IMG/VR virus record: IMGVR_UViG_3300019849_000036
Location: 1 to 47,075 of that record
Reading direction: 5' to 3' (one strand)
Length of the DNA stretch: 47,075 nucleotides
Origin: a virus
Program-made: the position numbers and the translations under genes
Notes under the pieces: generated by a model
Databases searched by the model: none
Seen by the model: the letters and a program-made list of their open reading frames with translations, nothing else
What the model was told of the DNA's origin: nothing
Shown here: piece by piece, positions 1 through 16,781 of the stretch
Numbering within the stretch: position 1 is the first letter of the stretch
How the letters are laid out: the number at the start of each line of letters is the position of its first letter

Positions 1-1092
1 TCAGGCCAGCCTGCGCTTTCGTTGTTCAATTTGAACAACGGCCCCCTCTTGACATTCTGAAATGTCTATATCCAGCGCTGCAGCGGCCCCTGACAGATAG
101 TCTGGCGAGTAGCGTGCATAGTGCTTTTCGGTCACTTTTGTGCTGCTGTGGCCCATATACTGCGAGATCACCGACATGGGTACATTCGCCTCTGCCATCC
201 ATACACCTGCAGTATGTCGCAGCCAGTAGGGGCTGCATTCGATCTGGGCGCGCTTGGCAGCCGCATAGACACCTTTTTTGATACTGGCGATCCGGGAGGT
301 GCCGTCATAGGTGACCACATAGTCCCCCAGCTTTATCCTGTAGGCCTCCAGCAGCGCATCCCGGCACAGCCTGTTCATCGGCACGATGGCCCGGCCCTTG
401 GTGGCATGGACTTCCTCTGTCGGGTCCCAAAGGTTGATCTGGCCATTTACGCCGGCGTCAAAATCCACACGGTCCCAGGTCAGGCCCAATATGGCCCCTG
501 GCCGTGCTGCGGTGGTGACGGCCATGATGCAGAAGAGGCGCACATGCGGCGATACGCACCCCTTCAGCAGCTGGGCAAACATCGGCTTGGTCAGATAGTA
601 ATCCCGCGGTGGTGCCTTGCCGCAGTTGGGCACCTTCGGGGCCTTTCCGGATATCCAGGCATTGTCGAAGGCCATCTTGGCGCAGCGGCGCAGCAGGCTC
701 ATTTCATCCGACACCGTGGAGCGGCTGGCCCCGTCGCCGTCGATGCGCTGGCTGATATATTCGTATATCTCGCCTTCCTCGATGTCCTGCACCAGCAAGT
801 GCCCGAATTCGCCGCCGACATTCTTCCAGTGATAGGCATTGCGCTCATAGCTTTTGCCGCGCATTGTTAGGTCGGCTTTCACCCGCTCAAACACATCATT
901 GAAGGTCCAGGCATCGGTTTCCGGCTCTGCGCTGTGGCCCATTCGCCGCCAGGCGATGGCCGCCTGTATCCGCGCCTGGTCTTCGTCAGTATCAGTGACC
1001 GCAAGGCCCAGCGACTGACGCCGCCACTTGTCGCCGTCCTTCCAGATCAAGCCCCATTTGCCCCGGTATTGTTCAAGACGGTAATCAGTCAT
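1..1092 (-). CDS. int: Tyrosine recombinase (phage-type integrase)
   Basis: Site-specific recombinase that would integrate and excise the 16.4-kb element at a tRNA-Val gene. Catalytic residues can be read: Arg197 (TAARPGA), Lys232 (ATKGRA), Arg292 in YWLRHT, His315 in MGHSS, and nucleophile Tyr325 in KHYARY. The usual first His of the HxxR box is Tyr289 here. The N-terminal half (about 1-165) is the arm-binding and SAM-like core-binding region. At 363 aa it is full length. Its ATG overlaps the stop of the upstream gene (1085-1855) by 8 nt, so the two are probably translationally coupled. The last codons contain a palindrome that recurs near the right end of the element. The gene lies at the left end, next to the attL expected just outside the window. 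Confidence 0.95.
   Translation of the reverse strand: MTDYRLEQYRGKWGLIWKDGDKWRRQSLGLAVTDTDEDQARIQAAIAWRRMGHSAEPETDAWTFNDVFERVKADLTMRGKSYERNAYHWKNVGGEFGHLLVQDIEEGEIYEYISQRIDGDGASRSTVSDEMSLLRRCAKMAFDNAWISGKAPKVPNCGKAPPRDYYLTKPMFAQLLKGCVSPHVRLFCIMAVTTAARPGAILGLTWDRVDFDAGVNGQINLWDPTEEVHATKGRAIVPMNRLCRDALLEAYRIKLGDYVVTYDGTSRIASIKKGVYAAAKRAQIECSPYWLRHTAGVWMAEANVPMSVISQYMGHSSTKVTEKHYARYSPDYLSGAAAALDIDISECQEGAVVQIEQRKRRLA
21..39. repeat. Palindrome at left end, shared with both attR copies
   Basis: A perfect 19-bp palindrome with arms GTTGTTCAA and TTGAACAAC around one base, inside the end of the integrase gene. Near-identical palindromes (TTGTTCA / TGAACAA) stand at 16212-16228 and 17620-17636, exactly where the two 176-bp attR repeats begin. 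Presence at both ends of the element suggests an integrase or excisionase arm site; this is inference. Confidence 0.6.
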
Positions 1093-1855
1093 CGGACGTC
1101 TTTAAAAGCCAGTTGTCTAAGTCAATTTTGAATAAATCAGAGTAATTCTCGATAAGGTACTTATGTGCATCCGAGCGATATCGATCATTTATATGTAGTC
1201 GAGCTAGTATAGTAAAAAGATTGCGGAATATACGTAGATCAATAAGCTCCGTATCTTTATGTTTTTTCGGGGGTATGATTTCCTCCAATTTGTCACAGAA
1301 AATTTTAAAGTGTACCTCTTGTGCTAAATTTTCAGAAAAATAATCTATGTTTCCCTCAGCAGTATGTTCCTCGCTGGCTTCAAGTAGTGCTTTAACCGAC
1401 TTGGAATACACATAAATGAAGTCGGGCAACATGCTGTTAGCCGTAGACCTCTCTTCAATTCGCATGGTTTTTTCAAGCTCTAGAAGCGCAAATTCTTTCA
1501 TCAAGCCGTAGGACTCTGCGCCGACTAGGGTCTGAGTTAGCACTGTTTGCAGTGCTTGGGTCATTACCAGTCGTAAGTCTGAATTTCGATCATTTGTGAT
1601 AGCAAACTTGTCCGGGTCATAGTTCTCGAAATCCTTGAGCAGCCTCTCGTGAATACCAGCAAACTGCCGCAGAATATTTGAAAATTCCTGATCTCTGAAA
1701 AAGAGCTCAAGCCACATATCGTCTTGGAAGGAGCGCTCAAGGCGATATTCAGCCTCTTGGCTCAGTGATCGCCCATTTTCCTGGGCCTGGGTTTCCAAAA
1801 GCTCTCTGATCCTCTCTGTTGTTCTGAAGCCTATTGAAACTCTTTTTCCTGCCAT
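1085..1855 (-). CDS. Ribbon-helix-helix (Arc-like) N-terminal domain protein, element regulator candidate
   Basis: The first 45 residues (MAGKRVSIGFRTTERIRELL, then a second helix with NGRSLSQEAEYRLERSF) look like an Arc/MetJ-type ribbon-helix-helix DNA-binding unit. The remaining 210 residues are helical, AT-rich in coding, and unrecognised. I start it at 1855, not at the longest ORF start (1894), because GGAGG lies 6 nt upstream of the ATG at 1855. It is divergent from the HTH gene at 1971, with a strong palindrome between them, and it is followed directly by int. The arrangement fits a regulator of the element's early genes or of excision. It has no S24 or CI-like features. Confidence 0.75.
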   Translation of the reverse strand: MAGKRVSIGFRTTERIRELLETQAQENGRSLSQEAEYRLERSFQDDMWLELFFRDQEFSNILRQFAGIHERLLKDFENYDPDKFAITNDRNSDLRLVMTQALQTVLTQTLVGAESYGLMKEFALLELEKTMRIEERSTANSMLPDFIYVYSKSVKALLEASEEHTAEGNIDYFSENLAQEVHFKIFCDKLEEIIPPKKHKDTELIDLRIFRNLFTILARLHINDRYRSDAHKYLIENYSDLFKIDLDNWLLKTSDD

Positions 1856-1910
1856 AAGCACCTCCATAAACCGATTTACTGCTTGAGAAATCATATGTCA
1901 TTAAAAAATG

Positions 1911-1944
1911 TTGACACACGTATAAACATTATGAATGTTCATAC
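1911..1944. promoter_or_regulatory. Divergent control region with a 25-bp imperfect palindrome
   Basis: The palindrome at 1920-1944 has arms GTATAAACATT and AATGTTCATAC around ATG, with one mismatch in 11. A TTGACA hexamer lies just left of it at 1911-1916. I could not place a convincing -10 at the right distance, so the promoter itself is uncertain. Position between the divergent RHH gene and the AlpA-like gene makes this the obvious operator for one of them. Confidence 0.6.
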
Positions 1945-1970
1945 CGGTAAAAACATCGAGAGAGGTCTTT

Positions 1971-2177
1971 ATGACAATACCTATTCCCAAAACACCAGAT
2001 GGGCGCACAACGCAGGCAGGTGCTGCCCAGTATCTTGGCCTTTCAAGGCCGCAACTGTCCAAACTACACCGCGCTGGTAAAGGCCCCGCCCGTGTTCAGC
2101 TTGGCCGCCGTGTCTATTACTTCATCAAGGATCTTGACGAGTATATCGCCAAGTGCCGCGTCACGTCGGAGGGCTAA
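1971..2177 (+). CDS. AlpA/excisionase-like MerR-type HTH protein
   Basis: A 68-aa basic protein. Residues about 13-60 form a winged-helix pattern: QAGAAQYLGLSRPQLSKLHR, then a wing with RVQLGRRVYYFIKDLDEYI. This is the AlpA/Xis-type layout found next to integrases in prophages and satellites, where such proteins drive excision or early transcription. The start at 1971 is chosen because AGAGAGG lies 6-12 nt upstream; the longer frame from 1935 has no such site. It is first in the rightward early operon, 3 nt before the next gene. Confidence 0.8.
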   Translation: MTIPIPKTPDGRTTQAGAAQYLGLSRPQLSKLHRAGKGPARVQLGRRVYYFIKDLDEYIAKCRVTSEG

Positions 2178-2180
2178 GAT

Positions 2181-2390
2181 ATGGGCGATAAGATTGCTCT
2201 GACCGGTGCAAAGGCTATTGCACTCTTTTTGTTTGGGGGTGACAGCCCGAAAGAGGTGCGACGTATCTATGCGCTCAGTGAACGTGGGCATATTCAGACC
2301 TGTCGCCATACAGGTCGTCTGATTGTCACCGATTCAGAACTTTTAGAACTACGATCGCTTGTTGATGAGCACGCGCTTTATCACGCATGA
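2181..2390 (+). CDS. Small early protein with an HTH-like pattern, function unknown
   Basis: A 69-aa protein with GGAGGG upstream of its ATG. The stretch SPKEVRRIYALSERGHIQTC followed by RLIVTDSELLEL resembles the DNA-recognition fold of small MerR/AlpA-like phage proteins, so it may be a second small regulator. It sits in one operon with the AlpA-like gene. No family is recognised with certainty. Confidence 0.65.
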   Translation: MGDKIALTGAKAIALFLFGGDSPKEVRRIYALSERGHIQTCRHTGRLIVTDSELLELRSLVDEHALYHA

Positions 2391-2407
2391 CCAGAAAGGA
2401 CTAAATC

Positions 2408-2707
2408 ATGGAAGAACACGACGGGCCTACTGTGGGCCAACTTCTGAACATTACCAGCCAGATGCATGTACGGATATCTGAGCGCACCGGTGATCTTGGT
2501 GATATCGCCCTCGACATCGATGGCGCTTCAAAACTTGTTCAGCTGTTGAATGATACCCAGGCGGATCCTGATATGGGTGCGCAATTACATCTTATTGCAG
2601 GATCGCTTGCCAAGCTGGCCAGTTCGCTTCAGCGGCTGGAAGGTGAGTTTCAGGATACGTGCCGAGAGGTCACCAGTCGCCTGCAACATGCCTATGCAGA
2701 TGCCTAA
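2408..2707 (+). CDS. Hypothetical early protein
   Basis: A 99-aa acidic protein with AAAGGA 11 nt before the ATG. It is predicted helical throughout (for example QLHLIAGSLAKLASSLQRLE), with no cysteines in a metal pattern and no membrane segment. It is not recognised. Its position between small regulators and the replication gene suggests an early-region accessory gene. A stable hairpin follows the stop codon. Confidence 0.65.
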   Translation: MEEHDGPTVGQLLNITSQMHVRISERTGDLGDIALDIDGASKLVQLLNDTQADPDMGAQLHLIAGSLAKLASSLQRLEGEFQDTCREVTSRLQHAYADA

Positions 2708-2713
2708 ATGAAA

Positions 2714-2743
2714 AGGCGTCAGATGTTGCCGCACCTGACGCCT
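2714..2743 (+). terminator. Strong hairpin after early gene, attenuator or processing site
   Basis: Perfect 9-bp arms AGGCGTCAG and CTGACGCCT with a 12-nt loop, 7 nt after the stop of the 2408-2707 gene. There is no T-run, so it is not a classical intrinsic terminator. It may instead act in mRNA stability or partial termination before the next gene at 2783. Confidence 0.45.
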
Positions 2744-2782
2744 CGTATCGATCTAATCTTATAGACCAAAGGAAATCTAACA

Positions 2783-3268
2783 ATGACACATCAAACACCA
2801 GATATCAAAGACCTTTCGATTGATGACGTTCTCTCGTCAGACCTGCTTTGCGATTTTGAGAGTACCGTACAGGAAATGGGAGCGGTCCTTGGTATTCAAG
2901 AAATGACATCTGACATCCTCTGGGATGAGATGATGTCACTCGAAAAACGCCTGGGTATGGGACGGGAAATTCTCAGCTGGTCCAAGTCCTGTGTTGAAAA
3001 GGATGTTTTCCTGCGCGGTCTGTTACATGATTACAGAAGAAAGCTCGAGGCGCTAGATCCTTATATCCGCCTACTATATTGGCATGTGCGTGACCATCAG
3101 GGTGCGGGGAAGGCAGCTAGTACTGATCCTTCGCAGGTATTAGAACGCGGCGGTAATCGTTATATTTTCAAGCCTGCGCCTGGCGAGCATAACGATCCAG
3201 AGGAAACAACAGCATTTGGCGTTGATGGGAATCCGTTGGATGCCAATCACCACTGGAACCAAAGCTAA
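2783..3268 (+). CDS. Hypothetical early protein
   Basis: A 161-aa acidic protein with AAAGGA 11 nt before its ATG. Mostly helical up to about residue 110, then a polar, probably disordered tail (KPAPGEHNDPEETT). No catalytic motif is recognised. It lies between a hairpin and the replication initiator gene and is probably part of the same early transcript. Confidence 0.65.
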   Translation: MTHQTPDIKDLSIDDVLSSDLLCDFESTVQEMGAVLGIQEMTSDILWDEMMSLEKRLGMGREILSWSKSCVEKDVFLRGLLHDYRRKLEALDPYIRLLYWHVRDHQGAGKAASTDPSQVLERGGNRYIFKPAPGEHNDPEETTAFGVDGNPLDANHHWNQS

Positions 3269-3315
3269 GCAGCTACTCTTTTCGACAAGTAAATCAATTT
3301 CAGGGGGTAGCTGTT

Positions 3316-4320
3316 GTGGGCCGTAAAGTTACTGCAAAAGGGCGAAATAAGTATAATCGCTTCGTAAAGCTTGACAGGTACTTCCTGAAATCTGCCGCCT
3401 ATCGTTCGCTTAGCACCGACGCAAGAGCGCTCTACACAGAACTTAAAATGCGCTTCAATGGCAGCAATAATGGTGACATTGCGATGAGCAATCGTGATGC
3501 ACAGCAAGCCATAAATCTGAGCGCAAAACCTGTCACCAGAGCCTTCAATGAACTTGAGAAGAAGGGCTTTATAAAGCGGTCACGGGAGGGCCTTTTCACT
3601 ACGCGTATGGCCACAACCTGGACACTGACAGAAGAGAGTTACAACGGTCGAGACGCTACGAAAGAGTATATGCGTTGGCAAAATTCCGGCCCTGAAAACG
3701 AGAAAAAAAAACAGAACATAGTGGTCGAATCGACCACGTATGGTGGTCAATCTGACCACGATGGTGGTCAAAACGACTACGAGAAAAAAGGAAAAAACAG
3801 CCTCATGGTGGTCGAAATGACCACCAACAGCGATTTTCTTGGTGGTCGAATTGACCACACATATAATATACCACCTACTAGGGGTGAAAGTGTACCGCCA
3901 TCCGCAGCTGACGATACGGAGCCCGCGTTTCCATTCCTTGATGATGACGTTCCGATACAGGAGCCGTTTCCAGTCGTCAGGTTTGAACAATTGATCGTCA
4001 GCCAAACAGGTGCTGACCTGGAAACAGTCCGAAGGCTTATCGCCATGTCCAAGACGGATCGGCCACACCTTCTCGAGGACCTAGAGCGCGGGGACATTTC
4101 GGTCAGCGACGCAGCAAACCACATCCTCGCAAACTTCACGGAAATTCTTCGGCGTGAAGCGATTAATCTTACAGATCGGCGTTTCGGCGTATATTCAAAC
4201 AACAAGCTGGCTGAAATGATCCACGTGAGTGCGGGAGCACTCTCAAATTTCAAGGGCGGCAGGAAAGCCATATCCATGGCAGCGCTAATGCGGCTGTATG
4301 CCTATGCTTCAGATCAATGA
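3316..4320 (+). CDS. Replication initiator-like protein with origin iterons inside its gene
   Basis: A 334-aa protein. Residues about 15-100 form a winged-helix domain (KSAAYRSLSTDARALYTELK, then SNRDAQQAINLSAKPVTRAF and ELEKKGFI), as in phage and plasmid replication initiators. The middle (about 115-200) is a low-complexity region encoded by five palindromic repeats. The C-terminus carries a second HTH (KLAEMIHVSAGALSNFKGGR). The start is GTG at 3316 with GGGGG upstream. As in lambda O, the origin probably lies inside the coding sequence. It is the only replication-type gene in the element. Confidence 0.75.
   Translation: MGRKVTAKGRNKYNRFVKLDRYFLKSAAYRSLSTDARALYTELKMRFNGSNNGDIAMSNRDAQQAINLSAKPVTRAFNELEKKGFIKRSREGLFTTRMATTWTLTEESYNGRDATKEYMRWQNSGPENEKKKQNIVVESTTYGGQSDHDGGQNDYEKKGKNSLMVVEMTTNSDFLGGRIDHTYNIPPTRGESVPPSAADDTEPAFPFLDDDVPIQEPFPVVRFEQLIVSQTGADLETVRRLIAMSKTDRPHLLEDLERGDISVSDAANHILANFTEILRREAINLTDRRFGVYSNNKLAEMIHVSAGALSNFKGGRKAISMAALMRLYAYASDQ
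3721..3858. repeat. Five palindromic iterons, putative replication origin
   Basis: Five 17-bp units with GTGGTC and GACCAC arms around 5 variable bases, at 3721-3737, 3743-3759, 3764-3780 (one mismatch in the right arm), 3808-3824 and 3842-3858. The first three are spaced 22 and 21 bp, about two helical turns; A-rich DNA lies between the third and fourth. All are inside the initiator gene, in the part that encodes a weakly constrained linker. This matches the lambda-type origin layout and is the probable ori of the element. Confidence 0.75.
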
Positions 4321-4617
4321 CTGGATCGCTCGGCCTCGTGTGTCCCAACCTGGGACAGACCATTTGGCATGAACACCCCGGATCGTCCGGGCCTTACCCG
4401 TCTCCTTGGCAAGCTGAAATTGCTCAGGGTTATCAGCAGCCCACATGGCTGCGGTGCGGTCGTGATCTTCCAATTTTGCTCCGGCAAGTTGCCGGGGCAC
4501 ATTGTCTTCAATCCATTGTCCGAATTGCTCATCACTCGGAAATAAGGCGCGACCTTCATTCAGGGCGGCAGCGCGGTCGTGGCTCTCGGGCGTGAATGGC
4601 AAGTTGCCAGACACCAC
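4309..4617 (-). CDS. Hypothetical protein, convergent to the initiator, possibly a decayed gene
   Basis: A 102-aa frame that reads like real protein: FPSDEQFGQWIEDNV, DHDRTAAMWAADNPEQF and TIRGVHAKW resemble a compact helical domain seen in phage accessory proteins, but I cannot name it. It overlaps the initiator stop by 12 bp. Upstream, another reading frame (about 4640-4720) also looks coding (LSRQLQELHELQAEEI). The gene may therefore be a frameshifted remnant of a longer one. Confidence 0.45.
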   Translation of the reverse strand: MVSGNLPFTPESHDRAAALNEGRALFPSDEQFGQWIEDNVPRQLAGAKLEDHDRTAAMWAADNPEQFQLAKETGKARTIRGVHAKWSVPGWDTRGRAIQSLI

Positions 4618-4620
4618 TCC

Positions 4621-4641
4621 TTTCCGCCAAGTTGGCGGAAA
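4621..4641. promoter_or_regulatory. Perfect 21-bp palindrome upstream of the structural operon
   Basis: Arms TTTCCGCCAA and TTGGCGGAAA around a single G, about 140 bp before the tail-tube gene. It may be the operator or activator site of the rightward structural operon, or part of the decayed reverse-strand gene. Three near-copies of TGTAATTC (about 4672-4695) follow. The only weak promoter-like match nearby is TTGACG at about 4695, without a good -10. Confidence 0.4.
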
Positions 4642-4777
4642 CCCAGTGTCAAATAGGCTATCTCCTCAGCCTGTAATTCGTGTAATTCCTGTAATTGACG
4701 GGAAAGGTCGGGAAACACCGATACGCGAGCGCACCCGTCATGCATGGTGACTTCAGAATATATTTTGGAGGTCAGCC

Positions 4778-5185
4778 ATGTCAGATGGTTCAAAATTTCT
4801 TATTCGGACCGAGGTCGATAGCATCGCGAATACCGTTGTTGCAGGCCTGATCAGCAACGGATTTACCCGAAGCCGCGAGACGGTTGATATCACCAACAGC
4901 GACAGTGGCCGCAACCGCGAACTATTGCCAGGCGGTGGCACTCAGTCTGCGACCATCAGCGGCAGCGGGATCTATTCCAGCGATGCCAGCAGCGAGGAAA
5001 TGCAGAACCGGATGAATTCGGGATCCATCGATGCCTACACGGTTGTTGACGTGAATTCCGGCGACGAATGGTCGGGGTTGTTTCAGCTGACCCAGCTTGA
5101 ACTGACGGGCGAGGTGAACGGTGCCCTGACCTTCAACCTGACGCTGGAGAGCAGCGGCGCAATCACCTTCACGCCTGGCGCGTAG
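4778..5185 (+). CDS. Major tail (tube) protein, TP901-1 family
   Basis: A 135-aa protein that would polymerise into the tail tube. It shows the family pattern of a beta-rich core with GSGIYSSD in the middle and the C-terminal strand pair LTGEVNGALTFNLTLESSG. The tail tube protein of the other cluster (35767-36171) has the same layout (SGSGVFVSD; MTGEHNGEVTYSLSLESAG), so the two are homologous. GGAGG stands upstream of the ATG. It is the first gene of the structural operon, which is unusual: head genes come later. Confidence 0.85.
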   Translation: MSDGSKFLIRTEVDSIANTVVAGLISNGFTRSRETVDITNSDSGRNRELLPGGGTQSATISGSGIYSSDASSEEMQNRMNSGSIDAYTVVDVNSGDEWSGLFQLTQLELTGEVNGALTFNLTLESSGAITFTPGA

Positions 5186-5204
5186 GTTTTAGAAAGGCGG
5201 ACAC

Positions 5205-5585
5205 ATGACCAAGACACCAACTAACAACACCGCAGGTGATCAGACATCTGGTTACGGCATCATCACCCTGAGCGGCGTGGACTACCATCTGAAGCTGAGC
5301 TTTAAAGCGCTGATGCAAATTCAGGACGGGGTGAAGCTGCCGATTTACCAGGTTATCGAACAGCGCTTGGCGCTGGGTGATATTGAGGTGGCGGCGCGCT
5401 GTTTCACGCATATGGCAGAGGCCGGGGGCAACCATGTCACACTCTACAAGGCGGGTGATTTGATCCTGGAGAATGATCCGCTGGAGGTTGTCGAGCAGAT
5501 CATTGCCATCATGGTGAGTGCGCTTGGGGGCGCTGGCGACGGAAAAAAGCCGAAAGCGGCAGCGAAGACGAAGACGCCGGACTGA
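5205..5585 (+). CDS. Tail assembly chaperone, G-like product (GTA gp10-type)
   Basis: A 126-aa protein. After an unstructured start, residues about 18-100 (GIITLSGVDYHLKLSFKALM) match the GTA-family tail assembly chaperone placed between the tail tube and tape measure genes. The C-terminus is Lys/Ala-rich (KKPKAAAKTKTPD). The end of the gene contains a -1 slippery heptamer; slippage would append the T-like domain. Together they would coat the tape measure protein during tail assembly. Confidence 0.85.
   Translation: MTKTPTNNTAGDQTSGYGIITLSGVDYHLKLSFKALMQIQDGVKLPIYQVIEQRLALGDIEVAARCFTHMAEAGGNHVTLYKAGDLILENDPLEVVEQIIAIMVSALGGAGDGKKPKAAAKTKTPD
5543..5549 (+). promoter_or_regulatory. Probable -1 ribosomal frameshift site (A AAA AAG)
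   Basis: The zero frame of the chaperone gene reads GGA AAA AAG, giving the classical X XXY YYZ heptamer used by dnaX. A slip by -1 continues at 5549 in a frame open to 5782, with no stop. The conserved part of the downstream domain (DWRALRRAAGAMGWTP) begins before any ATG in that frame, which favours frameshifting over independent initiation. Confidence 0.75.
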
Positions 5586-5782
5586 TTGACTGGCGCGCGC
5601 TGCGCCGGGCAGCAGGGGCGATGGGCTGGACACCACATGACCTTATGGCTGCAACCCCCGCCGAGTTTACAGATTTTTACCACGGGTGGGCAGTGGCGAC
5701 CGGACGCATGCAAGAGCCAGGGGTTACAGCAGATCAGGTGGACAGCTTGCGGGCTGCGATGGCGGAAGGGGCTGAACAATGA
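5549..5782 (+). CDS. Tail assembly chaperone, T-like extension made by -1 frameshift
   Basis: A 77-codon segment with no start codon of its own before residue 25. Joined to the first 115 codons from 5205 it makes a 192-aa G-T-like fusion. The core (DWRALRRAAGAMGWTPHDLM, then TPAEFTDFYHGW) resembles the small rcc01693-type protein that follows gp10 in GTA clusters. The stop overlaps the tape measure start by 3 nt. An internal ATG at 5621 with AGGGG upstream could also give a shorter product, but it would lack the front of the conserved domain. Confidence 0.7.
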   Translation, partial: AESGSEDEDAGLIDWRALRRAAGAMGWTPHDLMAATPAEFTDFYHGWAVATGRMQEPGVTADQVDSLRAAMAEGAEQ

Positions 5783-7902: not shown

Positions 7903-7914
7903 GAGGCGCTGGCA

Positions 7915-9114: not shown

Positions 9115-10648
9115 AATGAAATTTGAAGCCGGGAGCGCTGGTGCCTTCACAGGTATGGCCAGCGTTTACGGCAATGTGGACCGGGACGGTGACCGTGTGG
9201 AGCGGGGTGCCTTTGCAAAGTCCATTGAAGAGGCAAAAGCAAATGGCATCCCGCTTCTATGGGCGCACAATCCGCAGCAGCCCATCGGCATCATTACTGA
9301 GCTGGAAGAAACCGACACCGGCCTTTTGGTCAAAGGGCGCTTTGTTCTGGATAGCCAGGAGGCCAGCAGCAAATACGCGTTGGCCAAGGCGGGTGCCGTG
9401 CGCGGCCTGTCCATCGGGTTCATCACCAAGGCGGCGCAGCGGGACCCGGCGAACGGTGTCCGCACCATCACCGAAATTGATCTGAGAGAGGTGTCGCTCG
9501 TCACTTTTCCCGCCAACGAACTGGCGGGCCTTACGAGCTTGAAAGAGGCTGCGGTGGTCGCAGCCAGCAAAGAGGAGGGCGATATGCCTGATGATATCAA
9601 GACGGGAGACCAAGGCACGCCCGAAACCAAAGCGGCCACTATTGATGACGTGAAGGCGATTGCTGACCAGATCAGTGGGCTGGAAGCCAAGATGAACCGG
9701 CCATCGGTGCCAGCGGCCCCGAAGGATGATGTCGAGACCAAGGCCTTTGACCAGTTCCTGCGCACAGGCGCTGTTGCCCCCGGCATGGAGACCAAGGATT
9801 TAACGCTTGGCAGTGGCGGCACTGCAGGCTTTCTGGCACCAGAGCAATATATCGCAGAGCTGGTGAAGGATATTGTCGAATTCAGCCCCGTACGCCAGGC
9901 GGCGCGGGTGTCGCAGATGAATGCCAGCACGGCCCGCCTGCCAAAGCGTACAGGCCGCCTGAATGCTGTCTGGGTGGGGGAAACTGAGGCGCGAACCGAG
10001 ACCGAGCCGAGCTACGGCGATCAGACTTTCACACCGCATGAAATGGCCTGCTATGTCGATCTGTCCAATCAGGCGCTGGAAGACAGTGCATTCAATATCG
10101 AGGCAGAGCTGCGCATGGACTTTGCCGAAGAGTTTGGCCAGACTGAGGGCACGGCATTTGTGACCGGCGACGGCAACGGCAAGCCAACCGGTTTTACCAC
10201 CGCAGCTGTAACGGAGGTCACAAGCGGAAGCGCTGGAACCTTTGATGCCGATGATCTGATCGATCTGTTCCATGCCATCAAGACGCCATACGCCCAGCGC
10301 GGCGCATGGATGATGAGCCGGGCAACCATCGCCGCCGCCCGCAAGCTGAAGGACGGTCAAGACCAGTATATCCTGAACATGCAGGGGCTGAACGGCGTGC
10401 CGACCACCACCATCCTTGGCCGCCCTGTTGTGGAGGTACCGGACTTGCCGGGTGTGGCCACAGCCGAAAGCCCGATCTGGTTTGGGGACTTCAACCGCTT
10501 TTACCGGATCTTTGACCGGGTGGAGCTGCAGGTCATGCGCGACCCCTACAGCCAGGCGGCCAATGGTATGACGCGCTTCCATGCGCGCCGCCGTGTGGCC
10601 GGTGCGCCACTGGTGGCGGAAGCCGTTGCCAAGCTGACGATCGGCTAA
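9095..10648 (+). CDS. Fused prohead protease and major capsid protein (HK97 fold)
   Basis: A 517-aa polyprotein. Residues 1-140 are an HK97-type prohead protease: ASVYGNVDRDGDRVERGAF, catalytic His58 in LLWAHNPQ, and Ser106 in RGLSIGF. Residues about 140-215 form a charged scaffolding-like delta region. Residues about 215-517 are the HK97-fold capsid protein (FLAPEQYIAELVKDIVEFSP to the end, with VMRDPYSQAANGMTRFHARR). Separate genes are the usual state, and the other cluster in this window has them separate (28758 and 30454). Maturation must release the capsid subunit by self-cleavage. Confidence 0.93.
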   Translation: METTTYEMKFEAGSAGAFTGMASVYGNVDRDGDRVERGAFAKSIEEAKANGIPLLWAHNPQQPIGIITELEETDTGLLVKGRFVLDSQEASSKYALAKAGAVRGLSIGFITKAAQRDPANGVRTITEIDLREVSLVTFPANELAGLTSLKEAAVVAASKEEGDMPDDIKTGDQGTPETKAATIDDVKAIADQISGLEAKMNRPSVPAAPKDDVETKAFDQFLRTGAVAPGMETKDLTLGSGGTAGFLAPEQYIAELVKDIVEFSPVRQAARVSQMNASTARLPKRTGRLNAVWVGETEARTETEPSYGDQTFTPHEMACYVDLSNQALEDSAFNIEAELRMDFAEEFGQTEGTAFVTGDGNGKPTGFTTAAVTEVTSGSAGTFDADDLIDLFHAIKTPYAQRGAWMMSRATIAAARKLKDGQDQYILNMQGLNGVPTTTILGRPVVEVPDLPGVATAESPIWFGDFNRFYRIFDRVELQVMRDPYSQAANGMTRFHARRRVAGAPLVAEAVAKLTIG

Positions 10649-10662
10649 GCGAGGTCAGCGAT

Positions 10663-11022
10663 GTGCCTGTACGTCCGCCCAGAGTATGTCGCTGCGGTGC
10701 GGTGGTTCAACCGGGGATCCTTTGCCCCCGGTGCCACCGCGCCAACAAACGCGCCCGCGACCAACGCGCCGATGCCAAGCGCGGGACCGCAGCCCAGCGC
10801 GGCTACGGCCACAAATGGCGCACCGAGCGGGAAAAGTATCTCGCCGGTCATCTCTACTGTGTCATGTGCCTGCAGGATGGCCGGCAGGTCCCTGCAACGG
10901 TGGTTGATCACATCATCCCGCACAAGGGCGACAAGAAACTGTTCTGGCGCAGATCAAATTGGCAGGCGCTCTGCCAGTCCTGCCACAATGGCCGGAAGCA
11001 GCGTGAGGAATCTAATCAATAA
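10663..11022 (+). CDS. HNH endonuclease
   Basis: A 119-aa protein with a zinc-binding N-terminus (CRCGAVVQPGILCPRCH) and the HNH core VDHIIPHKGD, then SNWQALCQSCHNGRK. HK97-like cos phages use such a protein with the terminase for DNA cutting and packaging, so cos-type packaging is likely. The start is GTG at 10663 with GAGG upstream. The 3' end overlaps the reverse-strand gene by 11 bp. In this element the HNH gene is far from the terminase genes (13504-15472), which is unusual. Confidence 0.9.
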   Translation: MPVRPPRVCRCGAVVQPGILCPRCHRANKRARDQRADAKRGTAAQRGYGHKWRTEREKYLAGHLYCVMCLQDGRQVPATVVDHIIPHKGDKKLFWRRSNWQALCQSCHNGRKQREESNQ

Positions 11023-11686
11023 GTCTTCCTCTGGATATAGCCTCGCCGCATGCCTCAATCAGTGGTTTAACTTGTTGCATTGTAAGTATCCCGAGGCCAA
11101 TCATAGACCTGACAATCGCGACATCGCTCACTATGTAGAGCGAATTTTCAGGGTAAAGCGCTCGCGCACTCGGCACATCCTTGATTGTTGCTGTCAATTG
11201 TTGGTTCCACAGCAAATCAATGACTTTGAGTCTGGCAGAAACTTTTATTCCCTCTTTTCCAAGTTCTTGAGACCACTCTCGCCATTGCTCAATATTGATA
11301 GGCGTGGATGCAAACTCGATGGCTCTGAGGTGCTCGAGCGAAATTTCGTCGCCTTCAGACACCACTTTCAGCGCGTTTACAATATCACCGATAGTATTAT
11401 TAACAGTCCAAAGCTGCTCGACGAGGTTGTGTCGCGGGTGGGCGGTTCGTTCCTCAAATTCTGCGGCAGCCGACCGCCTCTGCCATTCAAGTGGGACAAT
11501 GATTGCTGCCAAACCGATCACTATGGTGCCGACAGAGCCTATCCAGGTGGCCATATCACCGCCGTGTTCGGCGAAGCTCAACTTGGCTTCCAGAATGGCA
11601 CCAAGAACGATGCCATTGCCGAAGATCAACAGACCCACTGCAAGCCTTACCGTCCAATCTCTCATCAGGTTGAAAGTCTTCTCCAT
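11012..11686 (-). CDS. Membrane protein of unknown function, reverse-strand moron
   Basis: A 224-aa protein with two N-terminal membrane segments (about 14-33, LAVGLLIFGNGIVLGAIL, and 47-65, WIGSVGTIVIGLAAIIVPL) and a soluble C-terminal domain without recognised motif. It interrupts the rightward structural operon on the opposite strand and has a lower GC content than its neighbours. This is the typical signature of a moron expressed during lysogeny. A role in superinfection exclusion or host modification is plausible but unproven. Confidence 0.75.
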   Translation of the reverse strand: MEKTFNLMRDWTVRLAVGLLIFGNGIVLGAILEAKLSFAEHGGDMATWIGSVGTIVIGLAAIIVPLEWQRRSAAAEFEERTAHPRHNLVEQLWTVNNTIGDIVNALKVVSEGDEISLEHLRAIEFASTPINIEQWREWSQELGKEGIKVSARLKVIDLLWNQQLTATIKDVPSARALYPENSLYIVSDVAIVRSMIGLGILTMQQVKPLIEACGEAISRGRLID

Positions 11687-11789
11687 AAACGGGAGGGGGC
11701 CTCAAAACCTATGGCGGTGTCAAGAGGACCGGCGGAGGAGGTCAACTTTTTTGCGCCGTGGGTTTGGGGCTTTTTTTTAGGAGGGTACT

Positions 11790-12356
11790 ATGCAGCCAAG
11801 GCTTGAACTACTGACTACAACCAATGTGAACCCGGGTGCCGATGCCTGGATGCTGCAGAGTTTCGAGGATTATGTGCGCGTCAATGCAGGTGCCGGGGCG
11901 CTGTCACCGTCGCTGGAAATGGCAGGCCCGATCATTGAAGACAAGATTGACCGGAAGATCCTGACACAGGATTGGCGTGTCCATCTGAGCGATATCTATG
12001 ACACGCTTCCGCTGACGCCTGTGCAGGAGATACTGGCCTTCGGATATATCGACCAGGACGGCCTGGAGGTATCTATCCCGCTGAGCGCGTTGAACTGGCA
12101 TGAGCTGCCCGACGGTCGCTGGCGGCTGGCGGGTTGGCCGTCCGGTATTCCAGCATTCGAGACTGACCCCAGCAAGTTCTGGCCAATCCGTGTGGATGTG
12201 CGCGTTGGTTATGCCGACAGCATGGATAAAGCCCCCATGCCATTGGTGAGCGCGATCAACATTGCGGCCACTGCGATCTGGGAAGGACGCCCGCCCAAGA
12301 CCCATGAGTACCAGGAAGAGATAGCGAGTTTCCGCCGTCATGACTCAGCATTCTGA
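11790..12356 (+). CDS. Head-tail connector protein (gp6-like)
   Basis: A 188-aa protein. N-terminal helices (DAWMLQSFEDYVRV, GPIIEDKIDRKIL) are followed by a beta-rich middle and C-terminal helical LVSAINIAATAIWEGRP. This matches the HK97 gp6 / GTA gp6-type connector that binds below the portal. AGGAGGG stands 5 nt upstream of the ATG. It overlaps the next gene by 17 nt, as head-completion genes often do. Confidence 0.75.
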   Translation: MQPRLELLTTTNVNPGADAWMLQSFEDYVRVNAGAGALSPSLEMAGPIIEDKIDRKILTQDWRVHLSDIYDTLPLTPVQEILAFGYIDQDGLEVSIPLSALNWHELPDGRWRLAGWPSGIPAFETDPSKFWPIRVDVRVGYADSMDKAPMPLVSAINIAATAIWEGRPPKTHEYQEEIASFRRHDSAF

Positions 12357-12687
12357 CTATCGATTCACACGGCTTGTAACCATCGATCGCTTGACCGTCA
12401 CATGCAATGACATTGGTGACGAAATCGAGATCTGGGAGAACATTGGCGGATTCTGGGCCGATGTGAAGTTCGTCCGCGGTTCTGAAGGTCTAAGCGGTGG
12501 GGTTATACAGGTTAGCCAGACCATATTGGTGACGGTGCGTCATCATGCTGCCGGTGGAGGGATTTTTCCGACAGCAGAAGATCGCCTGCGTCTTGACCTT
12601 GAAGACTTCAATATCACCAAGGTGCATGACCGCGATGGCCGCGGGCGCTTCTTGACCATTGAGGCGGTATCCGGGGGGCGGCCATGA
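12340..12687 (+). CDS. Head closure / head-tail adaptor protein
   Basis: A 115-aa beta-rich protein in the position of HK97 gp7 / SPP1 gp16 head closure proteins. The pattern ENIGGFWADVKFVRGSEGLS followed by ILVTVRHHAAGG and DLEDFNITKVHDRDGRGRF is characteristic of this family (W.DV.P..G.E; V..RY; I.Y.G..Y.I). It overlaps genes on both sides by 4-17 nt. Confidence 0.8.
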   Translation: MTQHSDYRFTRLVTIDRLTVTCNDIGDEIEIWENIGGFWADVKFVRGSEGLSGGVIQVSQTILVTVRHHAAGGGIFPTAEDRLRLDLEDFNITKVHDRDGRGRFLTIEAVSGGRP

Positions 12688-13109
12688 GCAGGTCGCGGAT
12701 CAGCGGTGTCAATCGTCTGCGCCGTAAGCTTAGACGCTTGCCCGATACCATTCAGACAGAGGTCGTTCGTGCCGTTCAGGACGGCGGCAACAGGCTGGAG
12801 CGGGAGGTCATAGCCGAGACGCCCGTTGATGAGGGCGAACTGCGCGATACGCTGAAGAAACAGTTCGGGCGTGACAAGCTGAGCGTTCGCGTCGGTTGGT
12901 GGGAAAAGGGCAACCTTCGGAACTGGCGTAAAGCGGGATGGCGTGCCCAATTCACTCTGTTCGGTACCAAGGGATCAGCCAAACATAATATCCCGGCCCA
13001 GCCTGCAAATCATTTCTTGCACCGCGCCTTCAAACGGGTGCGTAGCCAGATCCGTGGGCGCATCAACCAGGCAATTGATACAGCGCTTGAGAAAGCGAGC
13101 AAGCTATGA
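12684..13109 (+). CDS. HK97 gp10-family tail component
   Basis: A 141-aa basic protein. It begins with ISGVNRLRRKLRRLPDTIQT and continues with RLEREVIAETPVDEGELRDT, the hallmark of the HK97 gp10 family (helical N-terminus, then A...P.D.G.L), and ends in NHFLHRAFKRVRSQIRGRI. These proteins act at the head-tail interface. It overlaps both neighbours by 4 nt (ATGA-type), so it is translationally coupled. Confidence 0.85.
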   Translation: MSRSRISGVNRLRRKLRRLPDTIQTEVVRAVQDGGNRLEREVIAETPVDEGELRDTLKKQFGRDKLSVRVGWWEKGNLRNWRKAGWRAQFTLFGTKGSAKHNIPAQPANHFLHRAFKRVRSQIRGRINQAIDTALEKASKL

Positions 13110-13507
13110 CCGATTTTGCTAAGGCCCTGCATGCGGCCATATATACAGCACTAAATGGTGATTCTGCGCTGACCACGCTTATTACCGGTGTGTTCAATGC
13201 TTCGCCGCGTCGGCATGATTATCCCTTTGTGGAGATCGGCGATATCGAAGGTGCTGACTGGTCAACACAGACGCAGTTTGGTCAGGAACTACAGGTCAGT
13301 ATCCATATATGGTCTGATGGCAAGGCCCGCTCCGGCAACTATGATATTTCGGGTGAGGTCATTCGTATCCTGCACCGGTCAGCCCTGGCCGTCACGGATA
13401 TGGAATTGGTTTCTATCCGCCTTGTGTATCGTCATACGCAGTGGGAGCCGGACGGTAATGCTGTGCAGACTATTTTGCGGTTTGTAGCGTTGGTGCGCGA
13501 TCCATGA
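13106..13507 (+). CDS. Tail terminator / completion protein, DUF3168 family
   Basis: A 133-aa protein starting with ALHAAIYTALNGDSALTTLI, then FPFVEIGDI-like HDYPFVEIGDIEGADW and LQVSIHIWSD, as in DUF3168 tail-completion proteins (homologous in role to lambda gpU). The matching gene in the other cluster is 35268-35687 (same order of motifs: LTG.YD.PP, Y..FG, FDISVWT). It overlaps both neighbours by 4 nt. Confidence 0.85.
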   Translation: MTDFAKALHAAIYTALNGDSALTTLITGVFNASPRRHDYPFVEIGDIEGADWSTQTQFGQELQVSIHIWSDGKARSGNYDISGEVIRILHRSALAVTDMELVSIRLVYRHTQWEPDGNAVQTILRFVALVRDP

Positions 13508-13914
13508 GGGGCGATAAGCCAAAATCGATAGCGCTGGCGGCTGACGCGCTGGAGGATATCCCCGCAGTGCCAAGCTGGTTCGGCCAATATGCCAAGGCTG
13601 AATGGAAGCGGGCAGGGGCGGCACTGGTTGCCCGCCGGGTGCTGACACAGGATAACCTGGCGCTCTTGGAAAGTTACTGCATCAATTATCAGCAGTTCCG
13701 GGACTGCGTTGTCGCCATCCGCAAGTCCGGGCTGACGGTCAAAAGCAAAACCAGCGCACCGCGCCCGAATCCGGCGATCACCCTTCGCAATGAAGCCATG
13801 AAGGAAATGCGCCTTTTGGCGTCAGAGCTGGGCTTGTCGCCTGTGCGCCGGGACAAGGTGTCGTTGATTGGTAATGAGAACGATGATGACTTTGCCGGTA
13901 TGGATATCGGGTGA
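13504..13914 (+). CDS. Terminase small subunit, P27 family
   Basis: A 136-aa protein. The pattern AKAEWKRAGAALVARRVLTQ, DNLALLESYCINYQQFRDCV and NPAITLRNEAMKEMRLLASE, then LGLSPVRRDKVS, is the P27-family small terminase (DNA recognition for packaging). It is followed, with overlap, by the large subunit. Terminase genes stand last in this structural operon instead of first. Confidence 0.88.
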   Translation: MRGDKPKSIALAADALEDIPAVPSWFGQYAKAEWKRAGAALVARRVLTQDNLALLESYCINYQQFRDCVVAIRKSGLTVKSKTSAPRPNPAITLRNEAMKEMRLLASELGLSPVRRDKVSLIGNENDDDFAGMDIG

Positions 13915-15472
13915 TGAACCCATACCGGACCCATATGGCTATGGTCGCCGTGCGGTAAACTTCATCGAACGTCTGCGCCTGACAGAAGGCAAGCTGGCCG
14001 GTCAGCGCTTCAAACTGCCGGAATGGCAGAAGAATATCGTCCTGAAGGTCTATGGTGATGTGCGCGAGGATGGCCGGCGGAAGGTCCGAACCGTCTTTCT
14101 CTACCTGCCGCGCGGTAACGGAAAAACCACTTTCACCAGTGCGCTGGCGCTGTTGCATCTGATCGGCCCGGAACGCGAGGCCGCTGGCCAGGTCATGTGC
14201 GCGGCGGCGGACCGTGAACAGGCGGCGATCTGTTTCAACTCTGCCCACCGGATGATACTGCAATCCAAGCAGCTGCTGCGTGTCACGCGGGTGAAAGAGA
14301 GCGTGCGGGAAATTCTGCACAAAAGCTCTGCGTCCAAACTGAAGGCGATCAGCCGGGACAGCCGCACCAAACACGGTATGAGCATCAGCTTTCTGTCTGC
14401 GGACGAAGTCCATGCCTGGAAGGACCGGGACCTGTGGGATGTGCTCAGGTCGTCCATGCTGAAGCGTGAACAACCGCTGACCATGGTGACCACCACTGCT
14501 GGACACGGTCGGGAAAGCTTCGCCTGGGACCTTTATGATTATGCCAGCAAGGTTGCAGCCGGGGATGTGGTCGATGACACCTTTCTGCCCATACTGTTTC
14601 AGGCGGACCCGGATGATGACATTTATGACCCAGCCATCTGGCGAAAGGCGAACCCGGCGATTGTCAGCGGGTTTACCAGCACCGACTATTTCGAGACCAT
14701 GGCAGAGCGCGCCCGTGAAAGCTCAGCAGAGCGGCGGATCATGGAACAGCTGCACCTCAATCTCTGGCAGGACGGCCACACAGACCCATGGGTGGAGCTG
14801 GATGTCTGGGACGAGGGCGCGGATGACTTCACGCTGGAAGCGCTGGAACTGCATCCCTGCTGGATCGGTGTTGACCTGTCATCGACGGGTGACCTGACGG
14901 CGGTGGTGGCCGTCTGGCGCGTAGAGGGTGAGTTCTTCGTTGTGCCCTGGCTGTATGTGCCGGAAGACGCGCTGGACCGCCGGGAACGCCGGGACGAGGC
15001 CCCATACCGGACATGGGTGGATGACGAAGCCATGTATGCGACACCCGGTGCGGTGGTGGACTATGACGTGATTGAAGACCGTATTCGGTCGCTGTGTGAG
15101 CGATTCGATGTCCGCGAAATCAGCTTTGACCGCTGGCATGCGGACGCGATCAAGAACCATCTGATTGCAGAAAGCCGCCCTATAGTCGATTGCGGGCAGG
15201 GCTTTGCGACCATGAGCGGCCTGTCCAAGGCGACCGAAAGCGCGCTACTCCAGCGCCAGGTCAGGCATCTGGGTAATCCGGTGCTGCGCTGGTGTATGGC
15301 CAATGTTCGCATGGATATGGATGCTGCGGGCAACATCAAACCCGCCAAGAACAAGTCCGTTGACCGTATCGACGGGGTCGTCGCCATGATCATGGCCCTT
15401 GGCCGCGCTTCCCAGGCGACGGAGACCAGCTCCATATGGGAGACATGGAACGGTGATGACTTGGTGCTGTAG
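13883..15472 (+). CDS. Terminase large subunit (ATPase and nuclease)
   Basis: Packaging motor. Residue numbers here count from the earliest possible start (TTG at 13868). Walker A is PRGNGKTT (about 81-88), Walker B FLSADE (about 175-180), and the coupling motif TTTAG follows. The RNase H-like nuclease shows Asp336 (GVDLSST) and a late Asp in SVDRIDGVVAMIM. All key residues are present. Possible starts are TTG 13868 and ATG 13874, 13883 or 13886; I use 13883 because a weak GAGA precedes it. The gene overlaps the small subunit by about 30 nt. A related 3' end recurs at about 16425-16500. Confidence 0.92.
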   Translation: MMTLPVWISGDEPIPDPYGYGRRAVNFIERLRLTEGKLAGQRFKLPEWQKNIVLKVYGDVREDGRRKVRTVFLYLPRGNGKTTFTSALALLHLIGPEREAAGQVMCAAADREQAAICFNSAHRMILQSKQLLRVTRVKESVREILHKSSASKLKAISRDSRTKHGMSISFLSADEVHAWKDRDLWDVLRSSMLKREQPLTMVTTTAGHGRESFAWDLYDYASKVAAGDVVDDTFLPILFQADPDDDIYDPAIWRKANPAIVSGFTSTDYFETMAERARESSAERRIMEQLHLNLWQDGHTDPWVELDVWDEGADDFTLEALELHPCWIGVDLSSTGDLTAVVAVWRVEGEFFVVPWLYVPEDALDRRERRDEAPYRTWVDDEAMYATPGAVVDYDVIEDRIRSLCERFDVREISFDRWHADAIKNHLIAESRPIVDCGQGFATMSGLSKATESALLQRQVRHLGNPVLRWCMANVRMDMDAAGNIKPAKNKSVDRIDGVVAMIMALGRASQATETSSIWETWNGDDLVL

Positions 15473-15528
15473 CTCTGCTTCGGTGCTGTACGAGCGCTAC
15501 AGCGAATGGATATGAACCTTAAAAGCAA

Positions 15529-15549
15529 AGCCCCGCACAAGGCGGGGCT
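15529..15549. terminator. Terminator hairpin between terminase and the MazF-like gene
   Basis: Perfect 8-bp arms AGCCCCGC and GCGGGGCT with a 5-nt loop. On the minus strand it is followed by TTTGCTTTT, so it would end transcription of the MazF-like gene. It may also stop readthrough from the terminase side. A decayed copy lies at about 16549-16570 in the neighbouring remnant. Confidence 0.75.
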
Positions 15550-15617
15550 ATGTGACATCACATCTGGCTTGCAATCACCCTCGATATGATGGCCTCCGAA
15601 GAGGACTTATGCGGTGA

Positions 15618-16079
15618 CTACGAGGCCCCGCTAACGGGGTAAGGTGTATCTTCGTTTACATGTTGTGTCAAGAAACCGAGATTTAAAGAGGCAAGGACGC
15701 AGCGCTGAATACCCATTAGATCAGGCTTAGGAATAGGCTGAGTGCGGTATTTTCTATTGCCATTGGCATCTTTGCTGATTGGTATTGCTGAGAGCCGGTC
15801 AAAACTTACTGAATAGAGCATATCCGCCTTTACCCACATCTCGGGACTGTTATAGGGGCTAGGCAGAGGCTCTTCCAGTTTCAGTAGATAGTGGAAGTTT
15901 CGTACAGGGGCTGGCGGTGTTGTGCTGGTTGGAACCACTGTCACCAGACCACTTCTCGGTAAGTTTGGTGAACTCAAAACGATAACAGGCCTGCGCTTTT
16001 GCATTTCAGGCGGCACAAATGCCCGCGTAAAATCGCAGTAGCATATAGCGCCTATTTTTGGGTGGAATTTAATAGCCAT
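15618..16079 (-). CDS. PemK/MazF-like toxin-family protein, without visible antitoxin
   Basis: A 153-aa protein with the PemK/MazF barrel pattern: MAIKFHPKIGAICYCDF, KRRPVIVLSS, LVTVVPTSTT, then VKADMLYSVSFDRL. MazF-type members are sequence-specific endoribonucleases. This longer subgroup is commonly found alone, and no antitoxin gene is adjacent here. I take ATG 16079, which begins the conserved MAIKFHP, over the upstream GTG. It occupies the cargo slot between the terminase terminator and the attachment site; the related remnant to the right carries BrnT/BrnA in that slot. Confidence 0.82.
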   Translation of the reverse strand: MAIKFHPKIGAICYCDFTRAFVPPEMQKRRPVIVLSSPNLPRSGLVTVVPTSTTPPAPVRNFHYLLKLEEPLPSPYNSPEMWVKADMLYSVSFDRLSAIPISKDANGNRKYRTQPIPKPDLMGIQRCVLASLNLGFLTQHVNEDTPYPVSGAS

Positions 16080-16118
16080 CGGAAACACTTAAGTATGGCT
16101 CTATACAAGGTCAACCTG

Positions 16119-16143
16119 AACCCGCCCACCTGTCGGGTTTTTT
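16119..16143 (+). terminator. Intrinsic terminator near the right end of the element
   Basis: Stem AACCCG / CGGGTT with a 9-nt loop, followed by a run of six Ts counting the last arm bases. It would stop rightward transcription before attR, or shield the element from host transcription. It lies in the leader of the MazF-like gene on the other strand. Confidence 0.6.
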
Positions 16144-16211
16144 ATGAGGCAATCATTGAATCAAGACTTTTCCCTGGTGGCAGGCAGATGGTGGACCCTG
16201 CTGGGTGGCCG

Positions 16212-16387
16212 TTGTTCAATCTGAACAATGACCCGTAAATTCAGTGCAATTTATGCCCTATCTGGGCTGTTCTGTAAAAATAATATACAATGAAAACAGA
16301 TAGATAACGACAAACCTAGGTGTTGACATCGCAGGGGTCGGCAGTTCAATCCTGCCCGCGTCCACCATTTCCCTTCAATGACTTAGC
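16212..16387 (+). repeat. attR repeat, copy 1 (176 bp), right end of the element
   Basis: Direct repeat of 17620-17795 with about five substitutions and no gaps. It starts with the TTGTTCA / TGAACAA palindrome and contains an AT-rich stretch and then the 3' half of a tRNA gene. This is the right attachment site of the 16.4-kb element; the phage arm of the site is conserved together with the core. Confidence 0.9.
16323..16367 (+). other. Attachment core: 3' half of tRNA-Val(GAC), copy 1
   Basis: 45 nt from the anticodon loop to CCA. TTGACAT fits a 7-nt anticodon loop with anticodon GAC. CGCAG is the 3' side of the anticodon stem, GGCAG-TTCAATC-CTGCC is the T arm, and CGCGTCC plus ACCA is the acceptor end. 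The 5' side of the anticodon stem (it would need CTGCG) is absent, so this is not a functional tRNA. Crossover in the anticodon loop is typical for tRNA-targeting integrases. Confidence 0.85.
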
Positions 16388-16424
16388 TGTAATTTGCACA
16401 GGGGTTGGTGGGGCAGACGTACCG

Positions 16425-16650
16425 CGGGCCGTCTAGGCCACAGAAACCAGCTCCATATGGCAGGCATGAAACGGTGACTTTGGTGCTGCACGGCAACATC
16501 GGTGCTGTTCGGGCGCTACAGCCAATCGATATGAACCTTAAAAAGCAAAGCCCCGCACAAGGCAGGACTTGATTGCGTCATGCCAAGCTTGCAATCGCGG
16601 ATGGCATGACGGCCCTAACGGGTCTTAAATGTGGATACAGAGTAGAGCCA
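16425..16650 (+). pseudogene. Remnant: end of a terminase-like gene plus its terminator region
   Basis: From about 16425 the DNA aligns with 15405-15645: the last codons of the terminase (ACCAGCTCCATATGG in both), the GGTGCTG repeats, the GATATGAACCTTAAAA stretch, the terminator (now mutated), and GCTTGCAATC, at roughly 75-85 percent identity. This is the right end of a second, related element whose body is missing. The 62-codon frame across it (16573-16761) has no support as a gene. Confidence 0.8.
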
Positions 16651-16734
16651 CAAGCAACTGGAATATATGCCTTTGCGTATATTTTGTCTACCAAGACGTT
16701 CTTATTGCATCGAGAGATCACATTAAAATGTAAT

Positions 16735-16775
16735 GTCAATTTATTATTGACCGCTTATTAAATTGGCGTTACAAT
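16735..16775 (+). promoter_or_regulatory. brnTA promoter with overlapping inverted repeat
   Basis: TTGACC (16747-16752), a 17-bp spacer and TACAAT (16770-16775) make a good vegetative promoter. The inverted repeat GTCAAT / ATTGAC (16735-16751) overlaps the -35 and is a likely operator for the BrnA antitoxin, which autoregulates in known systems. The start point should fall at about the brnT ATG (16782), suggesting a leaderless transcript. Confidence 0.75.
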
Positions 16776-16781
16776 CTATCG

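Follow-up and report, generated by a model that had tools for sequence, protein, structure and literature searches.

A 16-kb element with head and tail-shaft genes and no recognised tip or lysis genes, probably a capsid-forming-type satellite

Introduction

Capsid-forming phage-inducible chromosomal islands (cf-PICIs) are described, in the passages of two papers that deal with them, as satellites that take entire tails from a helper phage (PMC10690885, PMC12987554). A sampling of cf-PICIs with putative tape-measure (tmp) genes has been mapped, with a legend that is silent on the tail tube (PMC12987554, Extended Data Fig. 10b). Here we analyse an element at positions 1-16387 of the viral record IMGVR_UViG_3300019849_000036. 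The stretch examined, referred to as the window, is the complete IMG/VR record of 47,075 bases, and its position 1 marks the edge of a contig rather than a biological end. The element carries genes for a head and for a tail shaft, the latter consisting of tube, chaperone and tape measure.

Tails built partly from satellite proteins have been shown experimentally for the PICI-like elements (PLEs) of Vibrio cholerae, which contribute their own tape measure, chaperone and hub to chimeric tails (PMC12987554). These tails are shorter, as predicted, and deletion of tmp cuts transduction by 96-99.9% (PMC12987554). PLEs use the head and the tube of the helper, PLE11 has its own baseplate hub, and the helper ICP1 is contractile (PMC12987554). 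The Mulch and Flayer satellites of Streptomyces encode their own head and packaging genes, have virulent helpers and show no significant homology to cf-PICIs (PMC10690885).

Results

The element runs from an integrase gene through an AlpA-like regulator, a replication gene (rep) with iterons, a tail tube, a chaperone, a tape measure, a portal, a capsid gene, connectors and both terminase subunits to an attachment (att) site (Table 1). The original prediction had listed these genes and called the space fully used. Pfam and PHROG matches, together with reading of the open reading frames (ORFs), found the listed genes present, every ORF intact and 91% of 1-16387 coding. The same profile searches matched no tip, hub, receptor-binding, fibre, holin or endolysin family among the ORFs of the element, as had also been predicted; these are the distal tail and lysis genes expected of an autonomous tailed phage. 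Judged from its genes and those of its relatives, the element is probably a capsid-forming-type satellite that is intact, makes its own tail shaft and would obtain tip and lysis functions from a helper.

The tape-measure call for the 707-aa ORF is backed by many PHROG matches, and the ORF shares 31% identity over 279 aa with the tape measure of siphophage L028. Upstream of it, where more than one chaperone had been expected, there is one plain chaperone ORF; the second is a probable -1 frameshift product, in the layout known from lambda G/GT. The stop of the -1 frame (TGA 5780-5782) overlaps the tape-measure start, and the extension resembles that of L028, with a weak match to PF09550 TAC_6 (0.0083).

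Fourteen genomic relatives of 16.9-18.5 kb (L121, L123, L238-L242, L245-L247, L250, L252, L254 and L255) are bounded by repeats of 15-67 bp at tRNA genes, the shortest of which are supported chiefly by their position at the tRNA end. All 14 carry a tape measure (677-1121 aa), and several also have TAC_11 or TAC_6 chaperones. In L123 the order is HNH-TAC-gp10-TMP-gp6-terS-terL-att (TAC, tail assembly chaperone; TMP, tape measure). The check proposed originally, a search for conserved elements of 14-18 kb with intact genes and no tip, thus returned a set of this kind, and tail genes in close pairs of relatives are under purifying selection. GmrSD- and DpnI-type restriction and Fic-like proteins are found in the cargo of the set (L121, L123, L238-L255), whose cargo zone is likely anti-phage.

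Selection was assessed in pairs of relatives as omega, the ratio of nonsynonymous to synonymous substitution rates, by the Nei-Gojobori method; the values for L194/L197 are unreliable, with a synonymous rate above 1. In close pairs omega was 0.16-0.28 for the tape measure and 0.16-0.28 for the chaperone; portal and capsid of these pairs gave 0.03-0.23. For the tube it was 0.016 in L236/L237, the closest pair, and 0.43 in the more distant L206/L236. These ratios indicate that the tail genes of the relatives are kept under purifying selection and are not decaying.

This evidence bears on a decayed siphoprophage, in which a deletion removed tip and lysis genes and what is left is being lost. Such an origin would account for the tube, chaperone and tape measure, which belong to ordinary siphophage and gene transfer agent (GTA) families, and an adjoining tandem copy of the element did decay to a remnant. 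The element itself, however, is densely coding with all ORFs intact, and its terS-terL pair lies after the connectors beside att, whereas the phages found have it before the portal. The omission is repeated in the 14 att-bounded relatives at different tRNA sites, and tail genes of relatives are under purifying selection. We rejected the tip-deleted prophage as very unlikely, since the family evidence largely refutes it. Of the two options originally offered, the satellite is thus favoured by the 14 relatives and by omega values of 0.016-0.28 for tail genes.

A small autonomous phage could have tip and lysis proteins that the profiles do not recognise, or that are encoded left of int and off the record; several ORFs have no family match, and the left end lies outside the record. 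The unmatched ORFs in the window are 69-269 aa long, however, which is below hub size, and relatives with a terminal integrase have an att repeat just outside it. We searched 75 unannotated ORFs of at least 140 aa from the 14 att-bounded relatives and the window, a few overlapping ones being omitted. Pfam matched nothing distal and nothing lytic among them, returning TAC_6, AAA/DnaB, regulators, restriction (GmrSD, DpnI), Fic, PemK and unknown domains. With PHROG, nothing distal or lytic appeared among the 25 commonest of 52 families, although the tip profiles applied to the maps do detect tips in phages. The chance of an autonomous phage is accordingly very slim, the smallest that we assign to any reading.

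A recognisable tube occurs among 105 loci with satellite gene order only in the window, L206, L236 and L237. The L206/L236 tube belongs to phrog_158 and is 16-17% identical to the window tube; being of another family, it suggests that tube ownership probably had two origins. The L236/L237 type is available in full in the records L272 and L273, with the order portal, protease, major capsid protein (MCP), HNH, tape measure, gp6, head completion protein (HCP), gp10, gp17, tube, TAC, terS, terL, small genes and integrase. Over residues 4-560 their tape measure shares 68% identity with the protein of phage L275, in which tip12-, tip13- and hub-type genes directly follow the tape measure. The satellite protein is 820 aa long vs 699 aa in L275, and a C-terminal motif is common to both. 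Of the sequence evidence, this likeness best connects satellite shafts with helper-type tips.

Several observations count against a satellite with a complete shaft of its own. The exact order of the window, with tube, chaperone and tape measure before the portal, is absent from the relatives found, so the gene order named originally for the search was not recovered; L240 comes nearest, with an HCP and a tape measure before the portal, PemK after terL and no tube. Tube ownership is a minority trait, since a recognisable tube is missing from most of the relatives that have a tape measure. Because position 1 is merely the record end, the record shows neither the left att site nor whatever may lie to the left of int. 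Small unknown ORFs may hide a distal protein that lacks a family match. A Dit-like gene follows terL in L206 (11611-12204; phrog_1302, 1.3e-31) and a fibre-like gene follows the tape measure in L194 (14147-16606; phrog_38233, 3.8e-54). The missing-tip rule is therefore not absolute, and the family is graded, not uniform. The satellite reading was originally to be overturned by relatives that carry tip and lysis genes in the stretch from terL to att; L206 has its single Dit-like gene there, and the satellite-order elements examined showed no recognisable hub or lysis gene.

The rarity of the tube also fits a cf-PICI-like satellite that replaces only one or two helper parts, such as ruler and chaperone, and whose own tube is minor or conditional while the helper tube forms most of the tail. 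The ruler would then be the common piece, and PLEs do swap tape measure, chaperone and hub while keeping the helper tube (PMC12987554). We regard this as unlikely for the element, whose tube ORF is intact, belongs to the RcGTA (Rhodobacter capsulatus GTA) tube family and stands in line with chaperone and tape measure; the tube of L236/L237 is, in addition, strongly constrained.

A capsid search returned many relatives at 37-51% identity and no close copy, and every named host belongs to the Alphaproteobacteria. The satellite gene order, with terL after MCP, is found in 105 of the MCP-anchored loci mapped, the shared order being portal-protease-MCP-HNH-connectors-terS-terL. In a tree of the terminase large subunit (TerL), a branch with an SH-aLRT of 99 separates 74 satellite proteins, including that of the window, from the phage TerLs of the set; the long-branched satellite row L122 falls outside this group. 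The rows nearest to the window by path include the tube-bearing satellites L236 and L206, and the window TerL also matches phage TerLs. For L122, the nearest relative of the left end, no att was found, and no tip gene occurs in the ~17 kb further downstream.

Because a direct search of viral contigs with the window tape measure as sole query gave one remote match, tape measures were located through capsid neighbours. They were present in 44 of the 71 satellite rows with enough sequence after terL, rows that were not deduplicated; because the loci were sampled through MCP and many come from one order, such frequencies are not population estimates. An apparent minus-strand tape measure in L166/L190 was excluded from the counts. 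On the TerL tree, presence and absence changed at least 13 times, and the tape measures belong to differing families (TMP_2, TMP_3, PhageMin_Tail). Some contain an embedded peptidase domain, as in L022 (11603-14395; VanY, D-Ala-D-Ala carboxypeptidase) and L240 (6028-8775; M15). In the capsid-only satellites L003/L113, L010, L164 and L002, TerL is 98-100% identical across different records, which suggests recent transfer between hosts. The best match to the window typA among 289 alphaproteobacterial genomes was 69% identical, with no related capsid in the order of that match. MW091529, an 18 kb phage record with a similar tube, was rejected as a relative; it is a GTA-type cluster that starts with the packaging gene and has several genes beyond the tape measure.

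An RcGTA-like cluster lies at 25440-44902 of the window, 8 kb from the satellite, with TerL, portal, protease, MCP and connectors, a tube (35761-36171), a 197-aa ORF at the tape-measure position, tip-type genes (38208-40070) and a 1172-aa hub gene. It shows no integrase or att within the window. Unusual for GTA clusters are a minus-strand 228-aa ORF (29535-30221) between protease and MCP and an extra 387-aa gene (31669-32832). The tip of the satellite could in principle come from this cluster of the same host, with no infecting phage: at 25.4-45 kb there are siphophage-like tip12-, tip13-, tip14- and hub-type genes, and the cluster tube and protease are 41% and 52% identical to those of the element. 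We consider this highly improbable, as the tape-measure position of the cluster holds 197 aa vs 707 aa, the window tube is about equally close to phage tubes (39-42%) and the chromosomal closeness may be chance.

Table 1. Features of the element and of the adjoining remnant
Feature	Position	Strand	Evidence or remark
Tyrosine integrase, 363 aa, complete	1-1092	-	PF00589 Phage_integrase 3.3e-13; record stops at its stop codon
Arc/TraY-like DNA-binding protein, 269 aa	1085-1894	-	PF05509 5.7e-5; homologue beside int in L122, L233
AlpA-like helix-turn-helix (HTH) regulator, 80 aa	1935-2177	+	PF12728 HTH_17 5.9e-9
Three small ORFs (69, 99, 161 aa)	2181-3268	+	No Pfam match; 69-aa ORF: weak PHROG match, function-unknown family
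Replication initiator/helicase-loader-like protein (rep), 334 aa	3316-4320	+	phrog_186 DnaD-like 4.8e-13; phrog_428; winged HTH PF13412
Iterons, five 22-nt palindromic repeats TGGTGGTCnnnnTGACCAC (repeat family D2), candidate origin	3716-3858	+	Inside rep
102-aa ORF	4309-4617	-	No family match above cut-off
Tail tube, 135 aa	4778-5185	+	PF06199 Phage_tail_2 5.6e-28; RcGTA tail tube Rcc01691 (6tba) 1.4e-14
Tail assembly chaperone, 126 aa	5205-5585	+	PF11836 Phage_TAC_11 0.0026; phrog_2115 1.2e-7
Probable -1 frameshift product	5543-5782	+	Slippery A AAA AAG 5543-5549; open -1 frame to the TGA
Tape measure, 707 aa	5779-7902	+	PHROG tape measures, phrog_10574 4.8e-34
Portal, 399 aa	7915-9114	+	PF04860 5.4e-92
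Fused prohead protease and HK97-type MCP, one ORF, 517 aa	9095-10648	+	PF04586 Peptidase_S78 2.1e-26; PF05065 Phage_capsid 1.2e-75
HNH endonuclease, 119 aa	10663-11022	+	PF01844 1.4e-11
224-aa apparent membrane protein ORF, inserted in head operon	11012-11686	-	No family match
gp6-like head-tail connector, 188 aa	11790-12356	+	Matches gp6-position proteins of relatives, E 1e-4 to 1e-8
Head completion protein (Phage_HCP)	12340-12687	+	PF05521 6.3e-15
HK97 gp10-like connector	12684-13109	+	PF04883 3.5e-8
Tail completion gp17-like protein	13106-13507	+	PF11367 9.3e-19
Terminase small subunit (TerS; Terminase_4)	13504-13914	+	PF05119 5.1e-25
Terminase large subunit (TerL), 534 aa, uninterrupted ORF	13868-15472	+	35-50% identity to satellite TerLs; within satellite clade
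PemK/MazF-like toxin, cargo	15618-16088	-	PF02452 3.5e-11, sole PemK-type match in scanned set
Right attachment region	16212-16387	+	176-nt repeat; second copy 17620-17795, 97%
Tandem remnant of sister element	16388-17795	+	terL 3' end, BrnT/BrnA-like pair, second att

The AlpA label rests on HTH_17 and on position, as PF05930 AlpA scores just 0.081, under the cut-off. Rep matches DnaD-like and replication-initiation PHROGs. The membrane-protein ORF within the head operon is probably cargo and possibly a defence gene. PemK homologues lie downstream of terL in L240 and L248.

The att core (16318-16370) resembles a tmRNA/tRNA 3' end; its match to the tmRNA model is weak and partial (12.8 bits, below the gathering score). 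The remnant aligns with the element end over 137 nt of the terL 3' end at 82% and over the 176 nt of att at 97%. Between these segments is a BrnT/BrnA-like pair (16782-17427), labelled from reading of the ORF sequences, so the sister, too, keeps only toxin-antitoxin cargo and att after terL. A palindrome, TTGTTCAATyTGAACAA, occurs at 20-44, inside the int end, and at 16210-16234 and 17618-17642, beside both att copies. These copies may be integrase/excisionase arm sites or operator/regulator sites.

Discussion

For an intact satellite with its own shaft, we infer helper dependence, tip borrowing, helper lysis and chimeric assembly by analogy with PLEs, whose tails incorporate a satellite tape measure and hub (PMC12987554). 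With a helper siphophage growing in the cell, AlpA and Rep would activate the island, and TerS, TerL and HNH would load satellite DNA into satellite heads. The helper tip complex (Dit, hub, peptidase, fibres) would bind the C-terminus of the satellite tape measure and so nucleate the tail. Satellite tube would then polymerise round the satellite ruler, so that tail length would be fixed by the satellite. Gp17 and HCP would cap the tail and connect it to the satellite head, and helper holin and endolysin would release the particle.

Alphaproteobacterial satellites may form a graded series, from head only, to head with ruler and chaperones, to head with whole shaft, in which the share of the helper shrinks to tip and lysis; we judge the case for this to be evenly balanced. 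The whole-shaft grade is represented by the window element and at least one independent group (L206, L236/L272, L237/L273). If the series is real, the satellite would set the tail length of its particles, which could accept the tip of any phage whose tip matches the ruler, and host range would be uncoupled from the remaining virion. Satellites are classed by what they steal, namely whole virions, shrunken heads or tails; a maker of head and shaft that lacks a tip would commit a very small structural theft and would be intermediate between satellite and phage. The question raised by PLEs, why satellites replace the tail ruler, becomes testable, and a diverse tRNA-anchored family in culturable alphaproteobacteria offers many natural experiments.

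Among known systems, the PLEs, especially PLE11, resemble the element in having a satellite tape measure and chaperone; the chimeric tail is proven for PLEs and would be expected here by analogy. The likeness is one of gene content as described, and the element differs from PLEs in its own head genes and tube. RcGTA-like GTAs and the siphophages L026, L028, L275 and L276 share its tube, chaperone, protease, capsid and connector families. Unlike the element, they have tip genes right after the tape measure and terL before the portal. The RcGTA-like arrangement, with terL first and no integrase or att, also contrasts with the element, where terL is last and both integrase and att are present. 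For Mulch and Flayer, in contrast to the element, no tail tube or tape-measure genes are reported (PMC10690885). In the open-licence papers searched we found no description of a satellite that also carries a tube, or of this alphaproteobacterial family.

The closest likeness is to cf-PICIs. The element shares with them an integrase and att site (in the record, the right att only), an AlpA/Stl-type regulator and a replication gene; its own portal, protease, MCP and connectors; its own packaging genes for TerS, TerL and HNH; a size of 14-18 kb; and the lack of lysis genes. It departs from cf-PICIs as the cited passages describe them, with no tail genes of their own and an entire tail from the helper, in carrying tube, chaperones and tape measure. 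The original statement that capsid-forming PICIs lack tails altogether was too strong, as some encode a putative tmp (PMC12987554). With the head, packaging, integration and no-lysis features present and the no-tail feature absent, the element is placed by its gene features as a cf-PICI-like variant rather than an ordinary member. Rulers encoded by satellites are already known, because cf-PICIs with putative tmp have been mapped (PMC12987554); the novelty lies in the satellite tube and in how large the family is.

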